Positions 1,246-21,046 of a stretch of DNA of 21,725 nucleotides are shown here, in pieces; positions within the stretch are counted from its first letter, which is position 1; each line of letters starts with the position of its first letter. Location: positions 1-21,725 of the IMG/VR virus record IMGVR_UViG_3300032156_002408. The stretch is one strand, 5' to 3'. The notes beneath the pieces are model-generated. The model made no database searches, had not been told where the DNA came from, and saw only the letters and a program-made list of their open reading frames with translations. The position numbers and the translations under genes were made by a program. This stretch comes from a virus.

Positions 1246-1298
1246 GGTACTCCCTTCAACGCCTATTCTACCTGAAAACCAGAAGCGACAAAATACCC

Positions 1299-1351: not shown

Positions 1352-1367
1352 GAGGAGAACTAACGCT

Positions 1368-1550: not shown

Positions 1551-1561
1551 AAAGGACTCAA

Positions 1562-5238: not shown

Positions 5239-5257
5239 AGCCAAAGGAGAAATTACA

Positions 5258-5779: not shown

Positions 5780-5785
5780 TAAACT

Positions 5786-6724: not shown

Positions 6725-6745
6725 GTGTGTAACTTCTTTAAGTTT

Positions 6746-6777
6746 AGGTGAAAGCCCTGCTAGCAGGGCTTTCACCT
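6746..6777. terminator. Perfect 32-bp palindrome after the capsid gene
   Basis: AGGTGAAAGCCCTGC and its exact reverse complement meet without a spacer, giving 16-bp arms. The transcript would fold into a very stable hairpin 21 bases after the capsid stop. No T-run follows, so it may slow or process RNA rather than be a classical terminator. Its last CACCT can alternatively pair with AGGTG at 6781-6785. Confidence 0.6.
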
Positions 6778-6865
6778 CCATAGGTGGGGGGGGGAAGAAG
6801 CGGCAGATTCACCTACTGCGCCAGCTTCACCCCCCACCAACTGAACCGAGGGAAGGGAGAACAAA

Positions 6866-7471
6866 ATGATACTGAGCGATATGAGAACCCTGGTAAGGCG
6901 AGACCTCAAAGACGAGGATAACTCTAACTATCGCTGGCAGGATAATGAGATTGACCGAGCCATCGCCAGAGCTGTAGCCGAACTATCTCGCTATGTCCCC
7001 AGGGAAATGAAGGCTACCATCGCTACCACAAATGGCAGCCGTGAGATAGCCTTAACCACCTTGACTGATAGAGTGAGTGTGGACAGGGTAGAGTTCCCGG
7101 TGGGAGAAACCCCGCGGAGCTTCCAGCGCTTCACCGTCTATTCCGAAACCATCACCCTCATTGGAGACGCCCAGGGCAACGGCGCCAACTGTTATATTTA
7201 TTGGGGTAAGGTTCACACTCTGGACGGCAGCACCAGCACCATCCCCAGCTACCTAGAGGACGTTTTAGCCCTGGGAGCTGCCGCTTATGCTGTGCTGGCT
7301 CAGAGCCAACTGCGCATCGATACAGCCGGCTTTGGTGGTGAGCGAGCCGATACCGACTACCAGTCCTGGGGCGGAGCCATGCTCAAGGATTTCAAAGCTC
7401 AGCTCAAGCGCTTCGGCAGAGGCCGCAAGCTCAAAATAAGTCAGTTCTATCAAGGAGACGATAATGAGTGA
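6866..7471 (+). CDS. Head-tail connector (adaptor) protein
   Basis: This 201-residue protein follows the capsid gene, as head-completion proteins do. The N-terminal helical part (MRTLVRRDLKDEDNSNYRW, then DNEIDRAIARAVAELSRYVP) is typical of gp6/adaptor-like connectors that attach below the portal. A beta-rich middle (79-125) follows, and then a second helical part, YLEDVLALGAAAYAVLAQ, near 132-149. A good ribosome site (GGGAAGGGAG) precedes the ATG. The stop overlaps the next gene start by 8 bases. The exact family is not certain. Confidence 0.6.
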   Translation: MILSDMRTLVRRDLKDEDNSNYRWQDNEIDRAIARAVAELSRYVPREMKATIATTNGSREIALTTLTDRVSVDRVEFPVGETPRSFQRFTVYSETITLIGDAQGNGANCYIYWGKVHTLDGSTSTIPSYLEDVLALGAAAYAVLAQSQLRIDTAGFGGERADTDYQSWGGAMLKDFKAQLKRFGRGRKLKISQFYQGDDNE

Positions 7472-7823
7472 TACAGAAAAATCTTCTCGAGACAAAATCG
7501 AACGAGGTCTACCCAGGCTAAAGGAAGGCTTGCCCTGGCAGGCTTTCGCCATCGTTGGCGACAAAGAAGACCCGGAGGCGTGGAAGTTGCCGCATCATAC
7601 CAAGGCTATCTTCCGAGCCATTCAGGGCAAGATTGGCCACTACCGCACCACGGACTGGGAGCACCTGTCAGCAGCCGTAGCAGCTCTTAGCCGTGGAGGT
7701 TTCCGCGGTAAGCGGGTAGAGGCCACTGAGCAGCAAATCCTTGACGCTGCTAAGCACTTGGCCAGACATTACTCCGAAAATGGTAAGCCGGTACCCGATA
7801 CCCTGGCAGCCCTGGTCGAATGA
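7464..7823 (+). CDS. DUF6582-like hypothetical phage protein
   Basis: This is a 119-residue protein with the pattern WQAFAIVGDKEDPEAWKLPH ... HLSAAVAALSRGGFRGKRVE ... AAKHLARHY. It resembles the small domain called DUF6582, often found in phage head regions near capsid or protease genes. It has no membrane segment or catalytic motif that I can name. Its position between connector and holin-like genes suggests a structural or assembly role, which is inference. It starts inside the preceding gene with a GGAGAC ribosome site. Confidence 0.55.
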   Translation: MSDTEKSSRDKIERGLPRLKEGLPWQAFAIVGDKEDPEAWKLPHHTKAIFRAIQGKIGHYRTTDWEHLSAAVAALSRGGFRGKRVEATEQQILDAAKHLARHYSENGKPVPDTLAALVE

Positions 7824-7865
7824 CCCCCCAGTTTGGAATTTGAAATTTGGTATAAGGAGATTGAA

Positions 7866-8576
7866 ATGTTAGGAAAATTCTTAAATGGCAAAAAGAAGTA
7901 CAGCGCCTTTATTATCACCGTGTTGGCAACCCTGATTCCCCTTTTCATTCAGGAGCCGGAAGCACAGAAAACCATATTGGACATGGTCCCGTCTGCTGCC
8001 GCAGCTCTGGCCGGCATCTTCTACATTATCACAGAGGGTAAGCTTGACACCGAGAGGGAAAAGACTAAAACAGCAGTCAATGGCAATGGCGGAGGTGGTA
8101 TTTCCCAATCGATAGCACAAGCCCCCGCAGCACAGCCACAGGCACAAAGCCAGCCTGTAGCTGAGTTGCCAACGCCCTTTGACCCTAAAGCCTTCCACGA
8201 GGATGTCCTGTCTACTGTCAAAGCCACATATACAGAGGTAAACCAGTGCACCATCTTCTATAAGGCGAGGGATAAAGGCTCGGTAACTGATTGCCAGAAT
8301 ATATCCCAGGCGGTGGATTACTGGAATTATCTAGTTGACCTGGCGGTTGACGCTAAAGACTGGCTGAAGGAAGAGACTGAGAAGAAGAAAGGGGATTGCG
8401 GCCGTAGCCCCGAGTACTATGTTTTCAACCGGGACTTCAATACCACCATCCGAGCTGCCAATGCCTTGACTGAGCTGGCCACCTCTAAAATCGATTGGAA
8501 AGCTAAGCTGGCGCCATTTAATAGGACGCTGTACGGCGTGGGGACTCTGGCCGGGCAGCTGCTGAATCCTAGTTGA
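7866..8576 (+). CDS. Holin-like membrane protein with soluble C-terminal domain
   Basis: The start is the ATG at 7866 with AAGGAG upstream; an earlier TTG at 7833 has no comparable site. The 236-residue protein has two predicted membrane segments (about 12-29 and 38-56) separated by a short turn containing QEPEAQ. A charged stretch (60-70), a Gly/Gln/Ala/Pro linker (72-100) and a soluble helical domain of ~135 residues with three Cys follow. Two membrane segments at the N-terminus are typical of holins, but the long soluble domain is not. It could be a holin with a regulatory domain or a membrane-anchored virion protein. Its stop overlaps the next small ORF. Confidence 0.5.
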   Translation: MLGKFLNGKKKYSAFIITVLATLIPLFIQEPEAQKTILDMVPSAAAALAGIFYIITEGKLDTEREKTKTAVNGNGGGGISQSIAQAPAAQPQAQSQPVAELPTPFDPKAFHEDVLSTVKATYTEVNQCTIFYKARDKGSVTDCQNISQAVDYWNYLVDLAVDAKDWLKEETEKKKGDCGRSPEYYVFNRDFNTTIRAANALTELATSKIDWKAKLAPFNRTLYGVGTLAGQLLNPS

Positions 8577-8665
8577 AACCGATAGTTTTTGACTGGCTAA
8601 CGATAGCCGGCATAGTGCTGCTGGTAGGCGCAGCAGTTTACATAATCTTGTCGAGGCAGAAATGA
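8573..8665 (+). CDS. 30-residue single-pass membrane peptide
   Basis: A TTG start overlaps the stop of the holin-like gene (TTGA), and the stop overlaps the next ATG (ATGA). The predicted peptide is MKPIVFDWLTIAGIVLLVGA continuing AVYIILSRQK. It has a single hydrophobic helix of about 18 residues with a short basic C-terminus. Coupling at both ends argues that it is translated. It may partner the holin-like protein in membrane permeabilisation, a role inferred from position only. Confidence 0.6.
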   Translation: MKPIVFDWLTIAGIVLLVGAAVYIILSRQK

Positions 8666-10482
8666 GAAGTATCTCAGACGCCCTACTCGAAGAACAGAAG
8701 AAGCCCACCAGGAAGCCTCTGGTTAAGCTCGAGGTGCAGGCTTATGGCCACCCTGCTCAGTCCTCGAGCCTCCAGTGGGAAGCTTTCGGCTGGCAGCGCT
8801 TTTATTCCGGCAGCGAAGGTAAAGACTCCCACGGCGTAACCATGCCTGGTGATGGCTCTTTGATTCGGGTCCGTAAGTCAAGCACCATCCTCTACGTCTC
8901 CCGTGTCACCAGCCCCGGCCAGGGCTCCGATTATTCGAGCTGGGGTGCATCTTTTGGTGGTGTTCCCTCCAATGCCAAAGTCGCCATCGCTTCTCAGGGC
9001 GCAGAGGTTATGGTGGCCTCCATGGATGCCGCCAACTTGTACCGCCGGCAGTCAGCTGATTATGGCGCTTCCTGGGGGAGCTGGACGGTTATGGCCAATG
9101 CCCGCCCCTGTGAAAGAGGTGTAGCCGTAGCCTATAAGTCCAATGGTGATTGTGTCATCGTCCACGCCTCAGACGTCAATGACCCCACCAGCCTATATCT
9201 CCAAAATAGGATTGGGGGGAGCTGGAGCGGTGGCTTGGGCCAGCGAGGCAGTTATGATGGAGAGATTGTTGACCTGGCCGTGTACTACGACGGCGATTGG
9301 AACATCATCGCCCTGGTCCAGGAGGCCAGTTATATCTCCGTAGTCCGCATGGTTTACGGAGACGGCTATCGCCAGACTGCCGGCACCTGGTCAACTGATG
9401 TCAAAATCGGTTTAGGTAGAGCCAGGGTAGATGTCGCTACTCAGGTAAGGCTAAGGCAGTTCGCCACCGGCTGGCCGGTAGGCTACCGCCTCATGTCCAT
9501 GGAGCAGCGTGCCGCTTGGAGCAGGCAAGTGAAGAGCAGTACCTATATGGAGAGGTATCAGGCGGTGATTGATGCTCTGGCAGGCGAGACGCTGGACGTC
9601 TCAGGTCCATACTTGCTCAAGCCCCCTACATCATGCACCAGGCCGCTTTTGTCTCTGGCCAGGCAGAATCAGCCCTGGTTATTCAGATTAAAGCCAGGCA
9701 CGGATTTCTACGACTACAACTGGAATAAGGCTAGCAGCATTGATACCAGCGCCTCAAGAGGCATGGCTTTAGCTGCCGACCCCAGCGGTGAGTATCTCTG
9801 GGCAACGCAACCTAATGAGGTCTGGCGGACACAATGCCCTGGCTCATGGAGTCCCCCAACCGCAGGCTCAGGCGCCGGCTCTTTAATCACCATCCCAGTC
9901 TCCAGAATCGCCAGGATCACCGAGGCTGTAGACCCGGAGCAGCCATCAGAATTAGAGGTGGAGCTGGACAATTCCAAAGGCACGTATAACTCGCCAGGCT
10001 CCGGCGCAATAGCCGTCTTAAAGCGGGGGGCGCGTGTAAACCTTCACCTGGGCTATAAGACCACGTCAGGTGATCAGCTCTCAGAGGCAGCCAGGTATTT
10101 CATAGAGGCTATGGAATATAAGAGAGACCCCAATATCTCCAACTTCATCATGCACTGCGTAGATGCCTGGGGCTTATTGCAGCGCTACCAGTTCAACAAG
10201 CCTGTTGAGTGGAATAGCGGTTCTGATGATTTTACCTGTTATCAGCTAATCGAGAAAGTCATGCAGGCGGTAGGGGGCACGCTGGGGTATAAGTCCCGGA
10301 GCAGCCTTATCACCAGCCTGTATCCCAGGCTAGAGGTCGGAGCTGGGGAAGCGGCATCTAGCGTGCTCAAAAGGCTGCTTAACCTGGTGCCAGACGTTAT
10401 CTACTTCTTTGGCCTGGATGGATATATCGTCTATCCCCAGGCAGGAGATACCATAGTCTATAAATTTAAGTTCCCAACATAA
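8662..10482 (+). CDS. Tail protein: beta-propeller-like region plus N-terminal half of a tail hub
   Basis: This 606-residue virion protein has three parts. An N-terminal ~45 residues fit a tail-associated anchor. A beta-rich region of about 46-400 carries an Asp-box (SADYGASW, 131-138) and further repeats such as DPSGEYLWAT, suggesting a sialidase-like propeller that may bind host glycans. From about 412 to the end the sequence looks like a baseplate-hub barrel (RIARITEAVDPEQPSELEVE, then FIMHCVDAWGLLQRYQFN, then DVIYFFGLDGYIVYPQAGD). It stops abruptly at KFKFPT. The expected continuation, starting with a HxIL-G-Y motif, is found instead at the C-terminus of the gene ending at 13279. It is translationally coupled to the membrane peptide upstream. 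Confidence 0.65.
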   Translation: MRSISDALLEEQKKPTRKPLVKLEVQAYGHPAQSSSLQWEAFGWQRFYSGSEGKDSHGVTMPGDGSLIRVRKSSTILYVSRVTSPGQGSDYSSWGASFGGVPSNAKVAIASQGAEVMVASMDAANLYRRQSADYGASWGSWTVMANARPCERGVAVAYKSNGDCVIVHASDVNDPTSLYLQNRIGGSWSGGLGQRGSYDGEIVDLAVYYDGDWNIIALVQEASYISVVRMVYGDGYRQTAGTWSTDVKIGLGRARVDVATQVRLRQFATGWPVGYRLMSMEQRAAWSRQVKSSTYMERYQAVIDALAGETLDVSGPYLLKPPTSCTRPLLSLARQNQPWLFRLKPGTDFYDYNWNKASSIDTSASRGMALAADPSGEYLWATQPNEVWRTQCPGSWSPPTAGSGAGSLITIPVSRIARITEAVDPEQPSELEVELDNSKGTYNSPGSGAIAVLKRGARVNLHLGYKTTSGDQLSEAARYFIEAMEYKRDPNISNFIMHCVDAWGLLQRYQFNKPVEWNSGSDDFTCYQLIEKVMQAVGGTLGYKSRSSLITSLYPRLEVGAGEAASSVLKRLLNLVPDVIYFFGLDGYIVYPQAGDTIVYKFKFPT

Positions 10483-10495
10483 AGGAGAAAGGAAC

Positions 10496-10639
10496 ATGGT
10501 TAAAGCGCTAAAGGATATGACCATCAGCGAGCTTGAGAAGGAGAATCAAAAGCTCATGGCTGAAAAGGAAGCTATAAGAGAGAAGCAACGCCTAATCAAT
10601 AGCTTAATCACTGAATTAAGCAGAAAGGAGGACAAATAG
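10496..10639 (+). CDS. Small coiled-coil protein (47 aa)
   Basis: A 47-codon frame follows an excellent ribosome site (AAAGGAGAAAGGAAC). The product is highly charged and predicted to be one continuous helix (ISELEKENQKLMAEKEAIRE, then KQRLINSLITELSR) with heptad-spaced Leu/Ile, so a dimeric or trimeric coiled coil is likely. The next gene starts one base after its stop. It may be a tail or fibre assembly partner. Function is unknown. Confidence 0.65.
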   Translation: MVKALKDMTISELEKENQKLMAEKEAIREKQRLINSLITELSRKEDK

Positions 10640-10640
10640 A

Positions 10641-11048
10641 ATGGCAAATGCACTTTACACCAAAGCCAAACAGCATCTGATAGACGGCACAATCGACATA
10701 GACACTAACGATATCAGAGCCATCCTGGTAGACGGAGCAGACTACACGCCCAACATGGCCACCCATGAAACCCTGGCCAACATACCGGCAGCCGGCAGGG
10801 TAGCCGTCAGTGGAGCGCTGGCCGGTAAGACGGTCACCGATGGCGTCTTTGATGCTGATGATAAAGTAATCAGCTCTGTCACAGGCGACCAGTTCGAGTA
10901 TATCGTCCTTTACCAGCACACAGGAGCGGAAAGTGCCCTATTGCTTCTGCTCATTGATACGGCCACCGGCTTGCCCTGTACCCCCAATGGCAGTGATATC
11001 ACCATCCAGTGGGCTAGTGGCGCCGACAAAATCTTCAGGTTGTCATAA
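10641..11048 (+). CDS. Phage structural protein (135 aa), conserved hypothetical
   Basis: This 135-residue beta-rich protein has the pattern common in small phage virion proteins: MANALYTKAKQHLIDGTIDI, ILVDGADY, then LANIPAAGRVAVSGALAGKT and DTATGLPCTPNGSDITIQW. Proteins with this layout are usually found in tail or fibre regions and are thought to be structural. AAAGGAGG is placed well before the ATG. It lies within the segment that separates the two hub halves. A precise role cannot be assigned. Confidence 0.6.
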   Translation: MANALYTKAKQHLIDGTIDIDTNDIRAILVDGADYTPNMATHETLANIPAAGRVAVSGALAGKTVTDGVFDADDKVISSVTGDQFEYIVLYQHTGAESALLLLLIDTATGLPCTPNGSDITIQWASGADKIFRLS

Positions 11049-11095
11049 GCCAAAGGGATAGCACTGAAAGTTTGCACGTAAGGTGAGGTAAGATA

Positions 11096-13279
11096 TTGGC
11101 TCAGTCTTTTTTCCCAATCACTCCCGTTGAAGTAACTCCAGGGACAGCCTCAGCTTGGACTGATGTAGATGTTAGTGCCTATGTACCCGCTGGTGCTACT
11201 GGAGTGGTACTTCATATAGTAAACAAGAACGCTGGTAGCGGTCTTAGTATTGGAGTTCGTAAAAACGGCTCTACCGATAATAGGTATGACGGTATATATC
11301 AATTCAACCATGAGTGGGCAGCAGTAGGTATAGATGCTAATAGAATTCTGGAGGCTTATGTAGGAAGCATAACTGATATAGACATCTGGCTTGTTGGTTA
11401 CACAACATCTGGCGTAACCTTCTTTACCAATGCCTACGATAAATCCTTGTCTACTACGAGTGCTTGGACAGATATTGACTGTAGTGCAGTAGCTCCGAAT
11501 GCAATAGGACTAATTTTTGAAGCCAATGGTCCCGGATACGGACAAGGTATTAGAAAGAATGGGTCAAGTGATAATCGTCATTTACAACCTTACAGCCATA
11601 TCTGGTACATCATTGGATGTGACGCTTCTCAGATAGTCGAGGGCTGGATTGACAACGCCGTTATAGACTTCTTCCTTGTGGGTTATATAACAGATGGCTG
11701 CGTCTTTAATACCAATGCTCCTGATGTTAGTCTAGGCACGGCGGGTTCTTGGCTAGACCTCACAGCACTACCGGCTAATTCAGTAATGGGTTTTATTGAA
11801 GTCTATAGCAATACTGTTGATAGCGGTTACGGTTTAAGAAAGAACGGTTCGGCAGAGGACATTTTTGGAGATATTTGTTATGGAACTCTTCGTGGCATAG
11901 TTGAATGTGATGCCAGCCAGATTATAGAAGGCAAGGTAGAGAGTCTGTCCACGGATTTCTTTGTTCTTGGATATGCCACATCTACATCAGCCCAGACCCT
12001 ATTGCCATCAAGCATAGTCCAGGCGGTAGCCATCGGCACGCCAGCTCTTACCTACCCCCAGACACTATCGCCGTCAAGCATAGTCCAGGCGGTAGCTTAC
12101 GGAACACCCAAGCTCATACTCTTCATTCAGCCATCGAGCATAGTCCAGGCCATAGCCATCGGGACCCCCATTGTCACGCAGCCGCAGCTTTACGAGTCCT
12201 ACCTCGAGGAGAACAATTCCCGCAATGTCCGTGGCGTTTACTGGCGCGCTCAGTCATTCACCCCCCAATCGTCCCACAAAATTACCAGTGTTAAGATAAA
12301 GCTGTGTCGTGTTGGCAGCCCAGGCGCCGGCGCTATCTCCATCAAAGCCACCGATGGCGCAGGCAAACCTACCGGAGCCGACCTGTGCTCAGCCTCCATC
12401 GACGGCGACTCTCTACCGACAAGCCCCACATTATTAGGCTTCTCTTTAGGCGCCGGAACAAACCTGAGCGCCGGCACTAAGTATGCCATAGTTTGGAGAT
12501 TAGCTGGGGGCGACACCGAAAACTACGTCCAGACCAGATATATGTATACCGGAACTTACGCCGGGGGAGCCGCAATAGAATCAAGTGATAGTGGCGTCAC
12601 CTGGGATGTTTGGACCGATTGGGATTTTGTCTTTCAAGATTGGGGAGAGGCCTTAACGCAGACCGTATACCCCGATAGTATCGTTCAGTTGGTAGCCTAC
12701 GGAACGCCTGCGGTCATACGTTCTGGCCTTATCATCCCCACCAGCATCGTCCAGCAGATAATCATTGGCACACCCACCGTCCAGGGGGGTATCCCTGGCG
12801 GCTTCGTGCTCCAGCCAGGGAGCATCGTCCAGCAAATAATCATTGGCAGCCCAACCATCCTCAAGTATATCTGGCATGTTATCCTTGACGGCCAGTATGC
12901 CATCGATACGCCGGGAGTCAATCGAGCCTATACCATCGGCAGAGACGCCTCCGGTAACCCTGTCTATGGCACGGCGGTGGATAGCACCGAGCTGGCGCTG
13001 GTAGGCGAGAGGTTAGACTTTATACCAGACCCCGCCATCCCCACCACCGCCCAGGCGGGGGACGTGGCCAGCGCTGTACTTTCAAAGATGAGACTCCGCG
13101 GAAAGGGGGGCGTCATACTCATCCCTCCAAATTGTGGCCAGGAGCTCTTTGATGTAGTGCAGGTGAGCGATAGTATGGCCAACCAGTCAGCCGTCTCGTT
13201 TCGTGTAGTCGGTATTCGGTTCGAGTATAACCCGAAGCTAGCCCGCTACGCCCATAAATTGATACTGGGAGCGCCGTAA
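11096..13279 (+). CDS. Tail/receptor-binding protein with repeats and C-terminal half of a tail hub
   Basis: This 727-residue protein has a TTG start at 11096 with GAGGT upstream. Residues 5-295 hold three ~95-residue repeats, each with SW-D, RKNGS, CDASQI-EG and DFF-LGY-type motifs. Six copies of a SIVQxVAIGTP motif follow at 306, 328, 348, 528, 550 and 576. Between copies 3 and 4 sits a beta-rich domain (366-518) resembling carbohydrate-binding or 'choice-of-anchor' domains. Residues ~590-727 (HVILDGQY, then TPGVNRAYTIG, IPPNCGQELFDVVQVSD, and KLILGAP) look like the C-terminal part of a phage tail hub. DNA for the first three repeats is clearly AT-richer than the rest, suggesting recent acquisition. 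A receptor-binding role is inferred. Confidence 0.6.
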   Translation: MAQSFFPITPVEVTPGTASAWTDVDVSAYVPAGATGVVLHIVNKNAGSGLSIGVRKNGSTDNRYDGIYQFNHEWAAVGIDANRILEAYVGSITDIDIWLVGYTTSGVTFFTNAYDKSLSTTSAWTDIDCSAVAPNAIGLIFEANGPGYGQGIRKNGSSDNRHLQPYSHIWYIIGCDASQIVEGWIDNAVIDFFLVGYITDGCVFNTNAPDVSLGTAGSWLDLTALPANSVMGFIEVYSNTVDSGYGLRKNGSAEDIFGDICYGTLRGIVECDASQIIEGKVESLSTDFFVLGYATSTSAQTLLPSSIVQAVAIGTPALTYPQTLSPSSIVQAVAYGTPKLILFIQPSSIVQAIAIGTPIVTQPQLYESYLEENNSRNVRGVYWRAQSFTPQSSHKITSVKIKLCRVGSPGAGAISIKATDGAGKPTGADLCSASIDGDSLPTSPTLLGFSLGAGTNLSAGTKYAIVWRLAGGDTENYVQTRYMYTGTYAGGAAIESSDSGVTWDVWTDWDFVFQDWGEALTQTVYPDSIVQLVAYGTPAVIRSGLIIPTSIVQQIIIGTPTVQGGIPGGFVLQPGSIVQQIIIGSPTILKYIWHVILDGQYAIDTPGVNRAYTIGRDASGNPVYGTAVDSTELALVGERLDFIPDPAIPTTAQAGDVASAVLSKMRLRGKGGVILIPPNCGQELFDVVQVSDSMANQSAVSFRVVGIRFEYNPKLARYAHKLILGAP
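11996..12853 (+). repeat. Six interspersed SIVQ-GTP coding repeats
   Basis: The DNA behind the six SIVQ...GTP motifs is itself similar (AGCATAGTCCAGGCGGTAGC and variants). The copies near 12011, 12077 and 12137 are most alike, and those near 12677, 12743 and 12821 more divergent. They look like linker modules that can recombine and admit inserted domains. Confidence 0.7.
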
Positions 13280-13341
13280 TTGTTTCCGTCAGAAAATTCT
13301 AATCCGAGCTGCCCAAAAGCCCGCATTTATGGTAGATAATA

Positions 13342-13542
13342 ATGAGCAGACTCCAAAAGCATCTATTGTGTCCGCAGGGAAGTACCTATATCGCCAGGCT
13401 GAGCGTGGGGAAGCCCATACCGGCCGGTGACATCAAAACCATCTACGCCCGCATCAAAGGGAAGTGGGTGAGGGTAGGCTGGCTCTGTTTAGACTGCCAC
13501 CGCTTCCAACCGGCCAGGGGGGCTATAAAGGGTTTTATATAA
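13342..13542 (+). CDS. Small Cys protein (66 aa), paralogue of the protein at 18865
   Basis: A 66-residue basic protein reads MSRLQKHLLCPQG ... GDIKTIYARIKGKWVRVGWLCLDC followed by HRFQP. It shares KH--CP, a DIKT-Y, KGK-WxRxG and LCL-C-F-P with the 77-residue protein at 18865-19098. The spaced CP and CLxC pattern suggests a zinc-binding fold. Both genes have the bases GTAGATAAT directly before their start and no clear Shine-Dalgarno. Function is unknown. It lies between the tail gene and terminase. Confidence 0.6.
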   Translation: MSRLQKHLLCPQGSTYIARLSVGKPIPAGDIKTIYARIKGKWVRVGWLCLDCHRFQPARGAIKGFI

Positions 13543-13575
13543 TGATAGTATCTAAACATTTGTGGGGGGTCAAAC

Positions 13576-13632
13576 ATGATGGTGAATGATGATGGTGTAG
13601 AGCATGTGGTGGTGTATATATGGTGGTGGTAA
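13576..13632 (+). CDS. Possible 18-residue leader peptide ending in three Trp
   Basis: A short frame in the GT-rich gap before terminase encodes MMVNDDGVEHVVVYIWWW. A GGGGGG run lies just upstream. The repeat-like GATGGT/GTGGTG sequence could produce such a frame by chance. If translated, the terminal Trp triplet would make it a candidate attenuator-type or stalling peptide. Low confidence. Confidence 0.2.
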   Translation: MMVNDDGVEHVVVYIWWW

Positions 13633-13656
13633 GTAACTAGAGAAGGTAGATAGATA

Positions 13657-15018
13657 GTGAAGCTAAGACCATATCAGGCAGAAGTAGCAAAGGCAGTGAT
13701 AGAGAGCATACAAGGCAATCTAGGCATGACGTTCTCTGTAGAGATAGCAAGGCAGGGGGGGAAGAATGAGTTATCCGCCCATCTCGAAGTACTACTACTC
13801 ACAATGTTCATGGCTACAGGGGGCAATTCTGTAAAGTGCAGTCCGACATTCAAGCCTCAGACTTTAATCAGTATGGGAAGGTTGAAGCAGAGGTTAGATG
13901 ATTTCGGCTTCGCAGGTTTATGGTTAACCGAAGCTGGCTACATGATAAGGTTAGGCAATGCCAGGTGGATATTCCTTTCCGCAGATGAGACGAGCTCGGT
14001 GGTGGGACACACGGCAGAGGTATTGCTAGAGATAGACGAATCCCAGGACGTTTCCAGAGACAAATATACCAAGGAGTTTAGGCCGATGGCGTCTGCCTTT
14101 AACACTACCACGATACACTACGGCACAACGTGGGATGACACCACCCTATTAGAGGAGATAAAACAGACTAACCTCGAATTACAGAAGAAGGATGGCATCA
14201 AGAGGCATTTCAGGTATGATTGGCAGCAGATAGCCAAGTACAATCCCCACTACGGCAAGTTCGTGGAATCTGAAAGAGAGAGGTTAGGAGAGACGCACCC
14301 CCTATTCTTAACTCAATACGCTCTCTTGCCACTCAGAGGCGGTGGGGGGTTTCTAAGCCCGACGCAGCTAGCCATGACGCAGGGGAGCCATGCCCGCAGC
14401 CGTACCCCCACCCCACCAGGTATCTACATCGCCGGCATAGACTTCGCAGGTGAGAGCGAGCAGTTAGAGGATGAGATATTAACCAGGCCAGGGAGAGACG
14501 CCACGGTAATCACCATAGGTGAGCTGATACCCCCCACCCCACCCGATACCCACCCTTCAATTAAGGTGATTGAACATTACGCCTGGGTGGGGAAGAAGCA
14601 TAGCGACCTATACCCGCAGATGCTTGACATAATAAAGATGTGGGGCTGTACGAAGGTGGCTTGTGACGCCACCGGTATAGGGGAGCCGTTGACAAGTTTC
14701 CTCCGGAAGAACCTGGGCCCCAAGGTAGAGGCGTTCAAGTTCACTCAGTCGTCCAAGTCTCAACTCGGGTTCGATTTATTGTCTGCTATCAACTCAGCAC
14801 GTCTAAAGATATACAAACAGGACAGCTCAGAGGACTATCAGGAGCTTATGTTTGAAATGACCAAAGCTAAGTCGGTGTATAGACCCAACCAGACCCTCAG
14901 TTTCTTCGTTGACCCTTCCGATGGGCACGACGACTACTTGATAAGTCTGGCGCTTCTGGTCCATTCCTCTAAGGAAGCTATCCCCCGACGAGCCAAAGGT
15001 GGCTTGAGAGAGGATTAA
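13657..15018 (+). CDS. terL: Terminase large subunit
   Basis: This 453-residue packaging motor drives DNA into the head through the portal and cuts it. The N-terminal ATPase has a Walker A-like ARQGGKN (31-37), Walker B VLLEIDESQ (122-130; D127, E128) and a coupling motif near HYGTTWDD (154-161). The C-terminal RNase H-like nuclease has GIDFAG (D262), CDATGIGEPL (D337) and DGHDDYL (D422, D425, D426). The start is GTG at 13657 with GAGAAGGT upstream. Its place at the end of the tail genes, 9.8 kb from the putative small subunit, is unusual. Two Pro-rich loops (250-255, 292-300) are inserted in the nuclease part. Confidence 0.9.
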   Translation: MKLRPYQAEVAKAVIESIQGNLGMTFSVEIARQGGKNELSAHLEVLLLTMFMATGGNSVKCSPTFKPQTLISMGRLKQRLDDFGFAGLWLTEAGYMIRLGNARWIFLSADETSSVVGHTAEVLLEIDESQDVSRDKYTKEFRPMASAFNTTTIHYGTTWDDTTLLEEIKQTNLELQKKDGIKRHFRYDWQQIAKYNPHYGKFVESERERLGETHPLFLTQYALLPLRGGGGFLSPTQLAMTQGSHARSRTPTPPGIYIAGIDFAGESEQLEDEILTRPGRDATVITIGELIPPTPPDTHPSIKVIEHYAWVGKKHSDLYPQMLDIIKMWGCTKVACDATGIGEPLTSFLRKNLGPKVEAFKFTQSSKSQLGFDLLSAINSARLKIYKQDSSEDYQELMFEMTKAKSVYRPNQTLSFFVDPSDGHDDYLISLALLVHSSKEAIPRRAKGGLRED

Positions 15019-16152
15019 ATAGTCCGGTCTGTAGGGTCTGTAGGGGATAGTAGAAACAGGAAGCACCCCGCTACAACTCCACACCCCACGAGGATTTACG
15101 CTCGCTCCGCTGTTCGCTCCGTTCGCTTTCCTGTGCTGGGGCAGCGCTTCTCGCGTGGGAAACCTTGCCAGCTCTCCACCCCACAGTAGAACCACACCCC
15201 TCACATCTGTGGTTCTCTTCGGGGTTCGCTTCGCTCGCCGTTCCTTCGCTCACATCGCTTCGCTCATAAATCTGTGCTGGCATCCCTTCGCTCGGTCAGT
15301 GGCGGCGGCAGCCCCAGCCACAGGTTTGATGCCGCTATCAGCGGTGTTGCACCCCCAGCCTTGCCAGATACGGCCGCTTCTGAACGTGGCCGTCCATTCG
15401 GTCGGGGCTTCGTAGTAAGGGGGGGGCGCACTCGCTTCGCCTGCGGCACGGAAACAGCTAGCGCCTCTTCACTAGCGCCTACGCTACGCTCCGTCTTTCG
15501 CTTGCGGCCGCTACTGTTTTAACCCGTGCCTTAAACCTCCTGTGCCGTCTGGCTACCCTGAGCAGAGGCTTCCCACCGTGGCTCGCTTCGCTCAGTCAGC
15601 CCCTGCTCTTTAACGGCTGCATCGCCTTCGCCTCGCACTGCTACGCCTTTAATAATCGGCTAGCGCCGTAAAGTTGAGCAGCTGCGCGTTGTCCCCTTCG
15701 GCTCGCTCAGGACATGCAGGCCATCCAGCACCCACACCCCAGGCGAAGCCAGTCCGTTGAGTTACGCCCACCCCACATGCGCCGGCGGTGATTCAAGCCA
15801 GTCATTGCCCACCCTCATAAGAGGCTACGCCCCACCCACCCCCACTAAACGTAGGTTCTTGCCCGCCGTGTTTTTTTATTGTGTGACATCCTGGTTCATG
15901 TAACAAGAAGGCGCAAGGGTCTTTGATAAACTGCGCCCTCAGCCTGGCAAGCAGCTTCCCCGTTCCAGCTCTGCTCAGCCACCCCACGCTGCTATGTGAG
16001 ATTGCCATGGCTTCTGTCTTGCCCTTGCGCTCGGCTAAGTGCTTCGCACCGCCTTCCGCTTTCGTACGCCCAGCTTCGCTAGCGCTCGCTATCTTTATGC
16101 AGGGGTACCACGGCGGGCTTGGTACGCCGTGAGTTTAGCCAGGAGGTGCGTT
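15019..16152. other. 1.1-kb region without a convincing gene, rich in GCTTCGCTC motifs
   Basis: Both strands hold only short frames of low-complexity composition with no ribosome sites. The + strand contains about ten GCTTCGCTC-like words (for example near 15106, 15225, 15258, 15432, 15585, 15626, 16045 and 16076). Hairpins are visible at 15188-15216 (9-bp stem AGAACCACA) and 16109-16131 (CACGGCG/CGCCGTG), the latter just before the ribosome site of the next gene. A 16-base segment at 15795-15810 (AAGCCAGTCATTGCCC) recurs at 16535-16550. A T-run is at 15872. I see no tRNA or recognised RNA. Confidence 0.6.
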
Positions 16153-16299
16153 ATGCGTTGCTCGTTGTGCCGTCAGTCGGTTTGCCAGTATCTGTGTGTC
16201 AGGGCGCAGCATTGTCCGGCGGGGTTAGCACGGCAGCGCCAGTTGTTGGCTGCGTATCAGTTGCGGCGGCTTGCTCGCAGAATGGGAGGAAAGAAATGA
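16153..16299 (+). CDS. Small Cys/Arg-rich protein (48 aa)
   Basis: This is the first gene of a run of small coupled genes. The ATG at 16153 has a perfect AGGAGGT site; a longer frame from 16039 is not supported. The product MRCSLCRQSVCQYLCVRAQH continues with an Arg-rich helix and ends RRMGGKK. Cys at 3, 6, 11 and 15 (CxxC, then Cx3C) suggests metal binding near the N-terminus. The stop overlaps the next ATG. Function is unknown. Confidence 0.6.
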   Translation: MRCSLCRQSVCQYLCVRAQHCPAGLARQRQLLAAYQLRRLARRMGGKK

Positions 16300-16514
16300 T
16301 ACATGTCAGGAATAAATTCACAGTAGAAGTTTGCGGAGCTGTCAGAGCAGCCGGTCGATGCCCTTCGCTTTGCAAGCGTGAGGGAGGCTGCTTCTGCACA
16401 GATTACCCGGGGCCAGGAGTTACGCTTAATGTGGCAGAGATAAAGCGCCGCTGTCATCGGTCGCATCGTGTCGCTTCAAAGCTATACATATTAAATCGAG
16501 GAGGTGAATTATGA
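16296..16514 (+). CDS. Small Cys-rich protein (72 aa)
   Basis: The start is the ATGA overlap at 16296 with GGGAGGAAAG upstream. The product begins MIHVRNKFTVEVCGAVRAAG and has seven Cys in all, including the cluster RCPSLCKREGGCFC, which could form a compact zinc site or disulphide-rich knot. The C-terminal third is basic (IKRRCHRSHRVASK). It overlaps the next gene start by 4 bases. It resembles no family I can name. Confidence 0.6.
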   Translation: MIHVRNKFTVEVCGAVRAAGRCPSLCKREGGCFCTDYPGPGVTLNVAEIKRRCHRSHRVASKLYILNRGGEL

Positions 16515-16681
16515 ATAAGCTCAAGCAGAAGCCTAAGCCAGTCATTGCCCCTCAGTCCTATTTGCATGTCTGCAAACAGTGCGGGTGGGTAGGAACGTAT
16601 GACGAGCTTTACCTGGGAGAAATCGGCACTTACGGGTACGCCCAGGACCCGAAGTGTCCCAGGTGTCGTACTTGCTGTTAG
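16511..16681 (+). CDS. Small zinc-ribbon protein (56 aa)
   Basis: Perfect AGGAGGTGA precedes an ATG that overlaps the previous stop. The 56-residue product has CKQCGW at 21-26 and CPRC at 49-52 (CxxC-n24-CxxC), a zinc-ribbon layout, and ends RTCC. Such proteins often bind nucleic acid or partner enzymes. Role in the phage is unknown. This frame is too short for many gene finders. Confidence 0.65.
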   Translation: MNKLKQKPKPVIAPQSYLHVCKQCGWVGTYDELYLGEIGTYGYAQDPKCPRCRTCC

Positions 16682-16698
16682 AGAAAGGAGGAAAGTCA

Positions 16699-16908
16699 AT
16701 GCAAAGAGTTTTATGGGGAAATCATGCTGTCCAGCAACTCGTAGCCTCAGCCTACCAGCACGGCTTCAATGATGGCTTCGCTCTTGCTGTCCAGGAAGAG
16801 GTGCTTGAGTTAGAAGCTACGAAGCGAGAGGAAGAGCGTCAAGCCATCATCAACTGGCAAGGTATCTGTGAGAGCCGGGAAGGATGCGAATGTGGCTATG
16901 ATGATTAA
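16699..16908 (+). CDS. Small acidic helical protein (69 aa)
   Basis: The start is at 16699 with AAAGGAGGAAA upstream; the frame extends back to 16654 without a site. The product begins MQRVLWGNHAVQQLVASAYQ and continues with a Glu-rich helix (VQEEVLELEATKREEERQAI). It ends with two to three Cys (ICESREGCECGYDD). A mainly helical protein with a possible C-terminal metal site. Function is unknown. It overlaps the next gene. Confidence 0.6.
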   Translation: MQRVLWGNHAVQQLVASAYQHGFNDGFALAVQEEVLELEATKREEERQAIINWQGICESREGCECGYDD

Positions 16909-17140
16909 GCGAGGAGCATATCAATCCGAGCTTGACCGCTTCTATAGTCTTGGCCCATTCAGGTTAATTGATGTTGAGAGGAAGAAGCAGGGTCAGAAAT
17001 GCGAGTGCTGTGGCAATCAGCACCTCAAGCGCCTGTGTCTCATTATAGATAAAAAAGGGTCCACATGGCGCATTGGCTTTGATTGCTGGTCGAACATAGA
17101 CGAGCGCCAGTTTTCTGACCCGACATGCTCTCTAAAGTGA
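16898..17140 (+). CDS. Small zinc-binding protein (80 aa)
   Basis: The likely start is ATGATG at 16898, within the end of the previous gene; a longer frame from 16868 is possible. It has the pattern KCECCGNQHLKRLCLIIDKK followed by WRIGFDCWSNI. A Cys pair, a central beta strand and a GxDCW motif occur in small phage and archaeal zinc-binding proteins of unknown role. No strong ribosome site is seen for the internal start, so translation may be coupled. Confidence 0.55.
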   Translation: MMIKRGAYQSELDRFYSLGPFRLIDVERKKQGQKCECCGNQHLKRLCLIIDKKGSTWRIGFDCWSNIDERQFSDPTCSLK

Positions 17141-17149
17141 GGTGAGGCA

Positions 17150-17365
17150 ATGCTGAAAGAGTTACTCGAGATTCTTGTTTCCTTATTACCCGCTAGAAGA
17201 AAGAGCCTTGGTGGGGAAATGCGTCATTACCGGCAGCAGCAGCATAAGCACAGGTTGAAGGTTTCAGACGCTCAGTATGAGGAGGCTATGGCCAGATATC
17301 GCACAGTGAGGACAAGGCCGGGTGAGAGGCCGGCCACCAATAAAGGAGCACACCATGGAATATGA
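17150..17365 (+). CDS. Small basic protein (71 aa)
   Basis: The start at 17150 has GAGGTGAGG about 5 bases upstream. The product begins with a hydrophobic amphipathic helix (MLKELLEILVSLLPARRKSL), followed by a His/Gln/Arg-rich segment (RHYRQQQHKHRLKV) and an unstructured basic tail. It overlaps the next gene by 11 bases. It may bind nucleic acid or membranes; nothing specific can be said. Confidence 0.5.
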   Translation: MLKELLEILVSLLPARRKSLGGEMRHYRQQQHKHRLKVSDAQYEEAMARYRTVRTRPGERPATNKGAHHGI

Positions 17366-17567
17366 AGTAGGTGTCACAATCTATGGTTACATTGTCGTCG
17401 AAGCGCCAAGCCGAAACGACGCGGTCGAAATGTTCGCTGCTATGCCCAGCGACCAAATCCTTCAAGATATAAAAGTCAAGAGCATGGATAGTGGGCATCT
17501 AAGCACAATAATAATGAGAGGAGGTGAATCATGGAGCAACCACAAAGCAGGTTCCACGGCAGAGTGA
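17355..17567 (+). CDS. Hypothetical protein (70 aa), beta-alpha-beta-like
   Basis: The ATG at 17355 has TAAAGGAG upstream; a frame extension to 17322 is not supported by a ribosome site. The product MEYEVGVTIYGYIVVEAPSR, then NDAVEMFAAMPSDQILQDIK, reads as strand-helix-strand. It resembles small phage proteins that end with a short regulatory tail. The gene overlaps the next one by 37 bases. Unknown function. Confidence 0.55.
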   Translation: MEYEVGVTIYGYIVVEAPSRNDAVEMFAAMPSDQILQDIKVKSMDSGHLSTIIMRGGESWSNHKAGSTAE

Positions 17568-17914
17568 GGGTACAGAGGGGCGATACCTCAATCGAGATCA
17601 ATGTCTTCGATGAAAACAGACAGGTCGTCTACCTCGAAGTCGCCCAGGCTATTGCTCAGTTCTCAGGTGACGCAAAGCCAGCCCCCGCAGCACAGAGCAA
17701 GCCCCCCACGGCAGAGCCCGCCAGGGCAGAGGCCGCACCTAGTCCGGTGCCAAAGTCCACCACCACCGGAACCAAAGCAGCTAATGCGCCAGTGTGCGAG
17801 GAATGTGACCTGGCTGATGCGGTAGAGCTGGTTTCCTGGGTCGATAAAAAGACAGGCGAGAGAAAGAAAGCCTGGAAGTGCCAGCGCTGCAAAAAGTGGC
17901 TATACAGCAGTTGA
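17531..17914 (+). CDS. Protein with Pro/Ala linker and C-terminal zinc ribbon (127 aa)
   Basis: AGGAGGTGA precedes the ATG. Residues 1-45 form a beta-rich region (GDTSIEINVFDENRQVVYLE) that could be a small oligomerising domain. Residues 48-85 are a Pro/Ala/Ser linker. Residues 88-127 contain CEECDLADAVE, then WKCQRCKKWLYS, a CxxC-CxxC zinc ribbon. The two-domain layout with a flexible linker suggests an adaptor that binds nucleic acid or a protein partner. It overlaps the previous gene. Confidence 0.65.
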   Translation: MEQPQSRFHGRVRVQRGDTSIEINVFDENRQVVYLEVAQAIAQFSGDAKPAPAAQSKPPTAEPARAEAAPSPVPKSTTTGTKAANAPVCEECDLADAVELVSWVDKKTGERKKAWKCQRCKKWLYSS

Positions 17915-17972
17915 GGCCACCGGGGGGTGCGCATCCGGTAAACGCACAGAATAAACTAGAAAGGAGATTGAT

Positions 17973-18569
17973 ATGGATGCTAATTTCTGTCCAACGTGTG
18001 CCGAACCGCTTAACCGGCTGGATTGGAGCCAATCACAGGAGAGAGTAAGCTATCTCTCCTGTGGCGCCCATTACTTTGAGCTTGTGAATAGAGGCTACGA
18101 CTGTGTTCTAAAGCAGCTAACGCTCAAAGTGTGCACAGTCTGCGGCGGCTTAATCCCATATCTGAAAGATTGGCAAGGTATATGCCGGGGCTGCCACGAA
18201 AAGCAGTGCCAAGAGTGGCGCATGGATGCTGAGGAGAGCTTTGCTCTTTTGGAAATCACGCCTCTTGTCTCGACGAGCAGGTCTTATTATAGCTGCAGAA
18301 CGAGCATCACTATCCGCCCCTATCCGAACCCCGCTAATTTCGGTGGCATGTACGGAGGAAGCTACGCAAAGACAGAGGAAGAGCTGGAAGTAATTATAGC
18401 CGACTTCAACAAGCAGGCCGATGGTTTCCGTGAGAATGGAATGATAAAGGTCGAGATTAAACGGAACGAACCAGAAGTCGTGACTGCGCAATGCAGGCTG
18501 GATACAAGCCCGCAGGTCGAGGAAGAAGATGAGGGAGAAGACCAGCCTATACAAGCATCCCTCATATAA
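17973..18569 (+). CDS. Protein with N-terminal zinc ribbons (198 aa)
   Basis: The start has AAAGGAG about 7 bases upstream. Residues 1-80 hold FCPTC (6-9), a CGAHY segment, CTVCGG (54-59) and GICRGCHEKQC (69-79), so at least two zinc sites are likely. The middle (100-160) has a beta-rich stretch with a Gly/Tyr turn (FGGMYGGSY), and the C-terminus is acidic (EEEDEGED). It is the largest protein of the small-gene cluster. It probably binds nucleic acid or protein; function unknown. Confidence 0.6.
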   Translation: MDANFCPTCAEPLNRLDWSQSQERVSYLSCGAHYFELVNRGYDCVLKQLTLKVCTVCGGLIPYLKDWQGICRGCHEKQCQEWRMDAEESFALLEITPLVSTSRSYYSCRTSITIRPYPNPANFGGMYGGSYAKTEEELEVIIADFNKQADGFRENGMIKVEIKRNEPEVVTAQCRLDTSPQVEEEDEGEDQPIQASLI

Positions 18570-18578
18570 AGGAGCAGA

Positions 18579-18863
18579 ATGAATTTACAGGCTGATTTCA
18601 AAGATGGCGAGGTTCTGTTTGCCGAGCTTCCGCCTAAACCACCGGACTTACGTCGCTACCAAGGCGCCATGTTTCTTGACCGCCCTGACCTGTGGCGGCC
18701 ACCACTCAGGCGAAACTGGAAAGCGGCACCCTTGCCCGGCCAGCAACCGCTTTTTGAGGAGGGGGACCAACAATCCCCCCTCCCTTCAATTTTAGCTTCG
18801 AATTGTTTTCCTAAAAAAATTATTTGCCGCTCTATCAAGCAAACCACGCTGTATTGTAGATAA
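18579..18863 (+). CDS. Hypothetical protein (94 aa), C-terminus possibly extended by mutation
   Basis: AAAGGAGCAG precedes the ATG. The first ~60 residues are Pro- and Arg-rich (AELPPKPPDLRRYQGAMFLD) and end at GQQPLFEEGDQ. The remaining ~30 residues are encoded across a strong GC hairpin with a nearby T-run and differ in style. This may mean that the original stop was lost. Two bases separate it from the next ATG. Function is unknown. Confidence 0.5.
   Translation: MNLQADFKDGEVLFAELPPKPPDLRRYQGAMFLDRPDLWRPPLRRNWKAAPLPGQQPLFEEGDQQSPLPSILASNCFPKKIICRSIKQTTLYCR
18758..18783 (+). terminator. Hairpin inside the 94-residue gene
   Basis: GGAGGGGGA pairs with TCCCCCCTCC (one bulged C) across a 7-base loop, followed by CTTCAATTTTAG. 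It looks like a weak intrinsic terminator or attenuator placed within an open frame. Confidence 0.35.
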
Positions 18864-18864
18864 T

Positions 18865-19098
18865 ATGCCGAAAGTCAAGAAGCACCGGTATTGTCCTAAA
18901 GCGCCGCTCCGGGAGATAACCACCCCCAGGGGCGTTAAGCTGATGTGCCCCATGGGAGACGTCAAGACTGTTTATTACCGCAAAGGCAAGACCTGGCGCC
19001 GCATCGGGACGCTTTGCCTCAACTGCCTTTGGTTCGACCCGGACCCCAATTTCATGCCCGCAGCCACACAGCCCCCACGTGCAATCCCACCACTATAA
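18865..19098 (+). CDS. Small Cys protein (77 aa), paralogue of the protein at 13342
   Basis: The product reads KVKKHRYCPKAPLREI, then MCPMGDVKTVYYRKGKTWRR and GTLCLNCLWFDP. It matches the 66-residue protein next to terminase across KH-CP, G-KT-Y, KGK-W and LCL-C-F-P. It has one more Cys-Pro pair (CP, CP, CLNC). A Pro-rich tail follows. The bases GTAGATAAT directly before ATG are shared with the paralogue. It is the last rightward gene before the terminator. Function is unknown. Confidence 0.6.
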   Translation: MPKVKKHRYCPKAPLREITTPRGVKLMCPMGDVKTVYYRKGKTWRRIGTLCLNCLWFDPDPNFMPAATQPPRAIPPL

Positions 19099-19181
19099 AA
19101 AGATAACATTCCTTTCCCTTCATAGGGGAGTCAAACAAAGACAAGCTATCCTAAACGAAACGTCATGTTGTTACATAAGAA

Positions 19182-19204
19182 AAAGGGGAGCAGTGCTCCC
19201 CTTT
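19182..19204. terminator. Bidirectional terminator
   Basis: AAAGGGGAGCA and TGCTCCCCTTT form an 11-bp stem around one base, in practice a 10-bp stem with a 3-base loop. A T-rich stretch follows on the plus side (ACTCTTTTTC), and an A-run precedes it (T-run for the minus transcript). It lies between the converging rightward phage genes and the leftward three-gene operon, serving both. Confidence 0.8.
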
Positions 19205-19333: not shown

Positions 19334-19729
19334 TTATTCTTTGAGTATGAGGTTGGCTTCTGCCGCTAGTTCTTGCGCTATTGAATGGCGCCTTCCTAAA
19401 TCTTCAGGCCATCCAACTATGTTTGCATGTCGAATTGGCTTGTTGTCGGGATCTACTGATAGGTCCCTTTCTTGCACCTTCGAGACTTTTATATCAGCTA
19501 TCCCGTAGAGTATCTTGGGGTTAGGCATATTATTTATTACGTGCTTTTGCCCTATTTCCCAAATCTCTTCTGGTTTCAGACCGTCAATTCTGAAGACGGA
19601 AAGCTTTAAATCTGTTGGTGGTATAAAAGCCTTTGGCTTAACGGCATTTTTGGTACGAGAAAAGTAGCTACCTTCAGGCAAGTACCGCCCTAATGATTCT
19701 TCTACACCAACAGTATTAGGCAATATCAA
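19334..19729 (-). CDS. Third gene of the TIGR04255 operon (131 aa), HANIxGWP protein
   Basis: The start is TTG at 19729, five bases after the upstream stop, with CGGAG upstream. The product has LKLSVFRIDGLKPEEIWEIG (41-60), a beta hairpin region (74-85) and the striking RHANIVGWPEDLG (100-112), ending in a helix (IAQELAAEANLILKE). The motif layout LSVFR-DGL ... RHANI-GWP ... AQ-LA-A looks like a conserved small family that I cannot name. No catalytic metal site is evident. It probably works with the two genes before it, since spacing is minimal. Confidence 0.65.
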   Translation of the reverse strand: MILPNTVGVEESLGRYLPEGSYFSRTKNAVKPKAFIPPTDLKLSVFRIDGLKPEEIWEIGQKHVINNMPNPKILYGIADIKVSKVQERDLSVDPDNKPIRHANIVGWPEDLGRRHSIAQELAAEANLILKE

Positions 19730-19734
19730 CTAAG

Positions 19735-20241
19735 TTACTCCGAATAAAGTCCATTTATGTTTCTAATAATGTTCTCCGGTATTTCCTCATACATATATTC
19801 GACTCCATATGTCTTGCTAGCACCATAAAGCCCTGCATATGCTAATTCATTTCTATTACCAACAATAACAGAAAAAACTCTGCGTTTTCCCTCATACCAT
19901 TCATAAGTTACATATCCATCTGGGTTGACATATATCTCGGGCATAGGAATACTTGATGGTAGCGATGGTAGCGATAGAGCAAAATACCAAGCATAATTAT
20001 AAGAGTCAATATTAATGGCTTTGGCACCATAGCCATCCCAATTATCGATGGAATGTTCCTCCTTCTCTTTTAAAAGGACTTCCAATACCTTAGCTAAGCG
20101 CTCACCAAAAGTTACGCTCCCTGCGAAATAGTCTCTGATATTCTCGGTATCTCTCCAAATCTCACTTGCGCTATCACTAACACCGACATTCTTATTGAAG
20201 ACTGTAGGATTTGTTTCCAGCGCTGTACTTAATTTGCTCAT
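19735..20241 (-). CDS. Second gene of the TIGR04255 operon (168 aa)
   Basis: It starts in the ATGA overlap with the TIGR04255 gene at 20238-20241. Residues 1-60 are helical. SIDNWDGYGAKAI (64-76) marks the start of a second part, followed by a helix (SYNYAWYFALSLPSLP) and a sheet (PEIYVNPDGYVTYEWYEGKR, 101-120; VFSVIVGN, 122-129). The combination DNWDGYGA / P-P-G-EWY / YAGLYG is a recurring uncharacterised type. A 9-bp tandem duplication (GATGGTAGC at 19955 and 19964) lies in it. It has no membrane segment or known enzymatic motif. Probably forms a complex with, or is regulated by, its neighbours. Confidence 0.65.
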   Translation of the reverse strand: MSKLSTALETNPTVFNKNVGVSDSASEIWRDTENIRDYFAGSVTFGERLAKVLEVLLKEKEEHSIDNWDGYGAKAINIDSYNYAWYFALSLPSLPSSIPMPEIYVNPDGYVTYEWYEGKRRVFSVIVGNRNELAYAGLYGASKTYGVEYMYEEIPENIIRNINGLYSE

Positions 20242-20978
20242 TCGTATAACCTCGCTGTCTTTTCAGTAATACTTCCAAAAAAGATCCGATTTTTCATTTC
20301 CCTTAATCTACCAAATTCTGACCAGACACTACTTTCATTAATGCCGGGTTTGCTACCTTTGTAGACATCTATATCTAGAATGACTCCAATATGATCGGGC
20401 TTCAGGCTTTTATCAAGTGCTTGTATAATATTAGCTGTAATATCCGCTTCATGAATTACTATTCTAGTTAAAAATTGACTTACTCTTTGGGGTAGAGATT
20501 CGGGAACTTGTGGTGGTGCGGTAAGATATTCCTCAAATTCCTTCATTTTCAGCGGTAAGTCTAATTTGTTAATATATCTCACAGCTATTCTTGAAATTAG
20601 CTCTGGTGAAGATTTAGAATAATATATTTCCCAAAGATTCTTTGCCTCCGAAAATACGCTCTCCCATTCTGTATAAGGATTCAGGCGACTAAACGTGAAC
20701 CCGTCTATTCGAAATTGTGCGATGTTCTTTTCATCCTCGGATTTATATATGTATCCTTGAATTCCTCCAATTGCAGGTTTTTCGATAAAAGGTTTATCTT
20801 CCTTTATTCCGAAGGCTCCCGTAAAAATTCTACGAGGCTCGTTTTTGGGATACCTATCAGACAGGTCTCTTGAAAGGCTTGAAAAATCCTCCGGATTAAA
20901 GGCCGGTGGCAATTTGACCCTAAAATCGATTATAGCCTCAATTATGGGAGCATTTCTCAGATGCCTTTGTTTAGCCAT
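20238..20978 (-). CDS. TIGR04255 family protein (246 aa)
   Basis: This protein matches the sporadically distributed family TIGR04255, of unknown function. The N-terminal signature LRNAPIIEAIIDFRVKLPPA is at 7-26. FRIDGFTFSRLNPYTEWE (89-106), the helix SEAKNLWEIYY, and the strand RIAVRYINKLDLP (130-142) are characteristic, as is the C-terminal FGRLREMKNRIFFGSITEK. Length is typical. It is the first gene of a leftward operon with its own promoter at 21019-21046 and overlaps the next gene by 4 bp. The AT-rich DNA contrasts with the phage genes. The family's patchy distribution and presence on a mobile element suggest a defence or conflict role, which is inference. Confidence 0.8.
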   Translation of the reverse strand: MAKQRHLRNAPIIEAIIDFRVKLPPAFNPEDFSSLSRDLSDRYPKNEPRRIFTGAFGIKEDKPFIEKPAIGGIQGYIYKSEDEKNIAQFRIDGFTFSRLNPYTEWESVFSEAKNLWEIYYSKSSPELISRIAVRYINKLDLPLKMKEFEEYLTAPPQVPESLPQRVSQFLTRIVIHEADITANIIQALDKSLKPDHIGVILDIDVYKGSKPGINESSVWSEFGRLREMKNRIFFGSITEKTARLYE

Positions 20979-21018
20979 ATGTCCCTAAAAACAAGATCCA
21001 ATTGAATTACAATCTAAT

Positions 21019-21046
21019 TCTATACCATGTAAACACTTAATATCAA
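21019..21046 (-). promoter_or_regulatory. Promoter of the TIGR04255 operon
   Basis: On the minus strand TTGATA (21046-21041), a 16-bp spacer and TATAGA (21024-21019) fit a sigma-70 promoter (5 of 6 and 4 of 6). The leader would be about 34 bases before the ATG at 20978, with AGGGA near the start. The surrounding 20979-21192 is AT-rich and holds nothing else I can support. Confidence 0.45.

Follow-up and report, generated by a model that had tools for sequence, protein, structure and literature searches.

Described relatives and organization of the locus

The closest described counterpart of the locus studied here is PDC-M32, a phage-defence candidate in the PADLOC collection that is also reported from prophages of S. 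meliloti (PMC12429752). Few PDCs have been validated (PMC12988326); they originate from the guilt-by-embedding study of Payne et al. 2024, cited in that article. The gene 2 family described below resembles PDC-M32A and relatives of gene 3 resemble PDC-M32B, with the A-then-B order in common; however, PDC-M32 has no model matching TIGR04255, the first gene of the trio, and the PDC-M32A profile, with 375 positions compared to the 168 aa of gene 2, is matched only at about 294-337, in its C-terminal part. TIGR04255 itself (sporadTIGR04255, an NCBIfam subfamily) is a family name without a function; neither a published function nor a naming paper was found in the literature searched.

The window, i.e., the whole stretch of DNA that was analysed, is the linear IMG/VR virus record IMGVR_UViG_3300032156_002408 of 21,725 bases, and a Pfam scan placed an integrase, an SPP1-type portal and a terminase among its genes. 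The operon spans positions 19334-20978 and consists of three minus-strand ORFs: gene 1 (20238-20978; product P1, 246 aa), gene 2 (19735-20241; P2, 168 aa) and gene 3 (19334-19729; P3, 131 aa, with a TTG start). The stop codon of gene 1 and the start codon of gene 2 share an ATGA overlap of 4 bp (20238-20241, minus strand), consistent with translational coupling, and a gap of 5 bp separates gene 2 from gene 3. The tight coupling of the genes that the original prediction had described was confirmed, in coordinates, lengths and spacing, when the ORFs were checked. The assignment of gene 1 to TIGR04255, also made at that stage, was borne out by NCBIfam with an E-value of 3.5e-37 and 128.6 bits against a curated cut-off of 30; residues 7-243 of P1 align to positions 2-249 of the 252-position profile, i.e., the match is full-length, and P11, I12, E14, Y102, R134, N137, D202 and F233 are conserved. 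ORF2 and ORF3 matched no Pfam or NCBIfam family, and the members of the gene 2 and gene 3 family alignments matched no Pfam family beyond one stray hit.

The base composition of the operon had been noted as different from that of the phage genes, and this was reproduced: the GC content is 0.391 in the operon compared to 0.531 at positions 1-19100 of the window (z = -6.1 relative to same-length windows within 1-19100), and GC3 is 0.31-0.38 in the operon genes compared to 0.51-0.68 in the phage genes. A promoter and a terminator belonging to the operon had been proposed as well. A terminator candidate is present 130 bp past gene 3, at 19182-19204: a strong 10-bp stem flanked by T-rich tails could act on both strands, and terminator-like sites are more frequent than in shuffled sequences (6 observed versus 1.9 +/- 1.4). 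The case for a promoter is weak: a possible promoter, TTGATA-18-TAGAAT, lies at 21017-21046 on the minus strand, 39 bp upstream of gene 1, and matches the consensus at 10 of 12 positions, however promoter-like sites are not above chance (10 versus 7.6 +/- 2.3). The further claim that the genes are phage cargo is not proven by these data: none of the terminase relatives checked is a virus contig that spans the junction between the phage genes and the operon, no relatives of the window integrase or of a 198-aa gene were found in viral contigs, and 747 bp, themselves fairly AT-rich (GC 0.434), follow the operon before the record ends. Because of this record end, and because no contig spans the site, the operon is possibly host DNA flanking a prophage rather than cargo.

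Several other features of the window were recorded. The terminase large subunit is encoded at 13657-15018; its nearest named phage relative is that of Bacillus phage vB_BboS-125 (33% identity), and four virus contigs encode relatives that share 93-99% identity with it across the region aligned. Direct repeats of 40-52 nt lie at 11991-12860, within a 727-aa ORF at 11096-13279, and a perfect 16-nt inverted repeat without a spacer lies between two ORFs at 6746-6777.

Linkage, distribution and sequence relationships of the three families

Relatives of genes 2 and 3 did not emerge when viral contigs, plasmids and phages were searched with single sequences. A degenerate HANIxGWP pattern, corresponding to a motif of P3, was then used as bait over genomes and matched 67 genome stretches. 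These stretches, together with virus contigs, contained 57 gene-3 loci, and in 55 of them gene 3 is immediately preceded by gene 2; in the two loci where gene 2 was not seen, less than 450 bp of upstream sequence was available. Because such a bait makes the residues that it specifies appear invariant, three phyla were searched with profiles as a check, in a census of 739 genomes (247 + 246 + 246). Gene 3 was present in 8/247, 19/246 and 6/246 genomes, i.e., in 2-8% of the genomes per phylum, a patchy distribution like that which had been stated for TIGR04255, and gene-3 loci as a whole are, by their record titles, spread over many phyla.

Overall, 84 distinct gene-3 loci were collected, and 75 of these had at least 1.3 kb of upstream sequence. 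In 73 of the 75, gene 2 immediately precedes gene 3, and 60 have both gene 2 and TIGR04255. Within the census subset, gene 2 was found in 29 of 30 loci with enough upstream sequence and TIGR04255 in 26 of 30, with the order unchanged. Furthermore, the 4-bp overlap is kept in 35 of the 45 systems with separate gene 1 and gene 2 ORFs, and across 32 systems the pairwise distances of each protein correlate with those of the other two (r 0.75-0.78), with none of 2000 permutations as high. These data support the view that the three families are inherited together as one stable module of patchy distribution, and the co-occurrence and order in the census bear out the stable linkage proposed for them. 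They also give a first context to the curated family TIGR04255, which is hereby tied to two protein families absent from Pfam. An apparent 414-aa fusion of genes 1 and 2 in one locus (L119) was rejected as evidence, since its junction, TTTTATGACC, is that expected from a one-base shift at the ATGA overlap, and a long ORF around gene 3 in another (L275) is probably a chance frame.

The same counts bear on a housekeeping or metabolic operon that lies on a virus record by chance, possibly as host DNA beside a prophage. The position of the operon near the record end, its low GC content unlike the phage genes, and the lack of a related virus contig showing the operon would all be expected under this explanation; however, it is strained by a census in which so few genomes of each phylum carry the genes, over many phyla and with changing neighbours, and neighbourhood clustering revealed no constant metabolic neighbour. 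It is regarded as very unlikely.

TIGR04255 is broader than the three-gene system. In the first census phylum, 29 copies of TIGR04255 were found in 22 of 247 genomes, and genes 2 and 3 lie beside 5 of the 29; most of the other copies head an operon with a different coupled partner. These partners include a 'MHPAYQQIIGMG' family, a 'DPEEDY' family, helix-turn-helix proteins, HicB-like proteins (recognized by eye) and others, and those sampled had no good Pfam match. In some loci, moreover, genes 2 and 3 follow an alternative first gene of the 'GNFNPAI' type ('LVALGSFNPAI'; 208-229 aa), located at 2693-3352 in L011, 2332-2991 in L022, 3680-4339 in L038, 154-780 in L174 and 658-1347 in L212; it was rejected as a TIGR04255 homologue, because hhalign revealed no relation. 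The locus had been called a TIGR04255 operon, a label that the data do not support because most TIGR04255 copies have other partners and several loci have an unrelated-looking first gene. Since TIGR04255 occurs mostly elsewhere and the first position can be taken by another family, the more constant part of the system here is formed by genes 2 and 3. Separately, in L079, L081, L182, L184, L185 and L191, TIGR04255 was seen to be joined by a 4-bp overlap to the uncharacterised 'MHPAYQQIIGMG' family, which has no Pfam match.

An alignment of 48 P2 sequences revealed a variable N-terminus, an NWDGYGA motif (W68, D69, G70) and a DG..EW strand region (G109, W115). Among 47 aligned P3 sequences, the HANIxGWP motif is accompanied by conserved E11, R15, P37, S44, R47, L90 and H101. 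The motif, which had been singled out as recurring, is real; its invariance is incomplete, as loci found without the motif bait carry HADIVNWP (L279), HVNIEGWP (L278), HMNIIGWP (L276) and HSNIVDWP (L280). When compared to the PADLOC profiles, the window P2 matched PDC-M32A at an E-value of 0.025, below significance, and the window P3 had no PDC-M32B match. Among 107 mixed P1, P2 and P3 sequences, however, 41 matched PDC-M32A (E <= 0.1; best E 4.4e-8) and 5 matched PDC-M32B (best E 3.2e-4). Four distant trios (L132, L212, L214 and L217) keep the gene order, a gene-3-like protein there matches PDC-M32B at an E-value of 5.7e-7, and the gene 2 profile joins the profiles of these trios at 98%. Judged by these profile matches, gene 2 and, more weakly, gene 3 appear to resemble PDC-M32A and PDC-M32B, and the trio is best regarded as a diverged, three-gene form of a candidate already listed, not as wholly new. 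The earlier description of the system as undescribed is thereby superseded.

Association with restriction-modification genes

To the side of the trio, scans of neighbouring genes with PADLOC and Pfam revealed many restriction-modification (R-M) subunits. R-M genes lie within 5 kb of 22 of the 84 loci (7 of 31 in the census subset), which, together with the order of genes 2 and 3, is a layout like that of PDC-M32; the window copy has no such neighbour, and no known defence gene was found in its own neighbourhood in the scans made. Over the whole fetched regions, R-M references were matched in 11 of 51 trio regions compared to 0 of 37 controls taken from the same sets of genomes (p = 0.0015), and in 6 of 27 trio regions when only census loci were counted (p = 0.004); these counts are somewhat favourable to the trio, as the references were taken from trio neighbourhoods and some of the R-M-positive trio loci either contributed a reference or lie in a genome that did. 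Closeness to defence genes, which had been suggested as a check, was thus found for R-M genes, which makes an indirect link to defence, and the data support the conclusion that the trio lies near or inside R-M operons more often than control regions do.

The embedding is direct in a minority of loci, and involves both type I and type III-like R-M operons, as is the case for R-M-embedded accessory defence genes. HsdS is encoded directly upstream of the trio in L012, L035, L047, L071 and L142, and directly upstream of gene 2 in L057; in a set of 50 genomes, six or seven systems with an HsdS domain at most 5 kb away were seen, against an expectation of about 0.5. Furthermore, the trio is part of an operon with the order Mod, P1, P2, P3 and UvrD/PcrA-type helicase in L113, L117 and L268, and genes in L279 are likewise located between Mod and helicase, but with another first gene. 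The Mod methylase is type III-like, with Mod and EcoP15I as its best PDB matches. PrrC within type I R-M is what we take to be the model case of an accessory defence gene in such a position; the trio differs from it in consisting of three small proteins without a recognized ATPase or nuclease domain, and none of these matched PrrC.

Because of the R-M association, a role in defence or conflict is the best reading of the locus. With moderate confidence, we interpret the trio as a single mobile module for conflict. It is most likely a candidate for anti-phage defence associated with restriction, and related to PDC-M32 as a diverged form with three genes. All three families are in this way linked to a PADLOC defence candidate and to R-M operons. 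The placement directly after HsdS or between Mod and helicase would be expected if the three proteins were accessory or regulatory subunits of R-M, which tune restriction, modification or target choice, do not stand alone, and on a phage could counter host restriction. However, no recognized R-M gene was found within 5 kb of about three quarters of the loci, the copy in the window stands by itself next to phage genes, and TIGR04255 has many other partners away from R-M; a purely accessory function is rated as quite unlikely.

A RadC-like (UPF0758) gene was also observed after gene 3 in some loci, on the same strand and sometimes overlapping it, and is possibly a fourth gene. It is located at 4042-4701 in L057, 2514-3173 in L071, 3753-4223 in L013, 11154-11411 in L118 and 8360-8887 in L134, and RadC-like genes adjoin some of the R-M subunits.

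Predicted structures and proposed roles of the three proteins

The AlphaFold2 model of P1 (pLDDT 91.4) contains one full and one shorter beta-alpha repeat, and nearly all top Foldseek matches in the PDB were TBP (E 6e-4, probability 0.97-1.0). The predicted beta-alpha-beta4-alpha repeat followed by a second, shorter repeat resembles that of TBP-like fold proteins such as the TATA-binding protein and the N-terminal domain of RNase HIII; however, the global TM score against TBP is only 0.26-0.33 with an rmsd of 11-13, i.e., the likeness is local, and P1 is unlike the TBP family in sequence, with no Pfam TBP match and no PDB sequence match. The model suggests two TBP-like beta-alpha-beta repeats in P1, as a hint at the fold, and from this predicted fold P1 may bind nucleic acid. 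The model of P3 (pLDDT 96.2) gave weaker Foldseek matches in the PDB: KptA accounted for the top two (the first with E 0.38, probability 0.51 and TMq 0.42), and a HopF-like ADP-ribosyltransferase (ART) effector was fourth (E 1.8). A search of BFVD folds with P3 returned nothing usable. P3 was rejected as a sequence homologue of RES or KptA, because hhalign gave E-values of 0.37 and 0.51 over 10-11 columns only. ADP-ribosyltransferase-fold enzymes (KptA, HopF-like, RES) may be the nearest folds for P3, but its conserved residues are unlike a standard R-S-E or H-Y-E set, and the small ART-like fold is a weak hint.

If the trio acts as a restriction-associated defence module, the TIGR04255 protein could be an exchangeable sensing or docking subunit, and protein 2 could be an adaptor that holds protein 3 inactive within a complex. 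The effector role would then fall to protein 3, freed or activated once a phage passes or disturbs restriction, and its activity would stop the growth of the infected cell. No phenotype was found reported for any member of the three families. What had been a 'hypothetical' operon becomes a candidate defence module open to testing; homologues occur in many phyla, and natural variants allow partners to be compared.

A toxin-antitoxin-like addiction module, in which one protein poisons, one neutralises and the third tunes, would stabilise a mobile element without sensing phages. It is consistent with small, translationally coupled genes that are patchy on mobile DNA, and with exchangeable TIGR04255 partners of which some are antitoxin- or regulator-like (helix-turn-helix in L078 and L082; HicB-like by eye in L131, L193 and L194). 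However, Pfam, NCBIfam and PADLOC returned no known toxin family for any of the three proteins, and recurrent embedding in R-M operons is more specific than the generic placement of toxin-antitoxin genes, and we judge this alternative to be unlikely. A wider reading, which is advanced as doubtful, is that TIGR04255 may be the common lead subunit, a TBP-like nucleic-acid sensor, of a large unrecognized superfamily of conflict systems, where it would head operons with five or more exchangeable sets of partners; genes 2 and 3, which would include a minimal ART-like effector, would form one of these sets, and they accept another first family.

Gene-2-like domains were also observed outside the trio. 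On two Hymenobacter plasmids (L222, 5887-6408; L224, 5797-6381), a protein with such a domain follows a DUF4209 protein, and in L222 this pair is near BrxA and BrxE (BREX) genes. On an Acetobacter plasmid (L223), a gene at 5998-6891 encodes two gene-2-like domains and overlaps a gene at 6881-7303 that is annotated as the ClpXP adaptor SspB.
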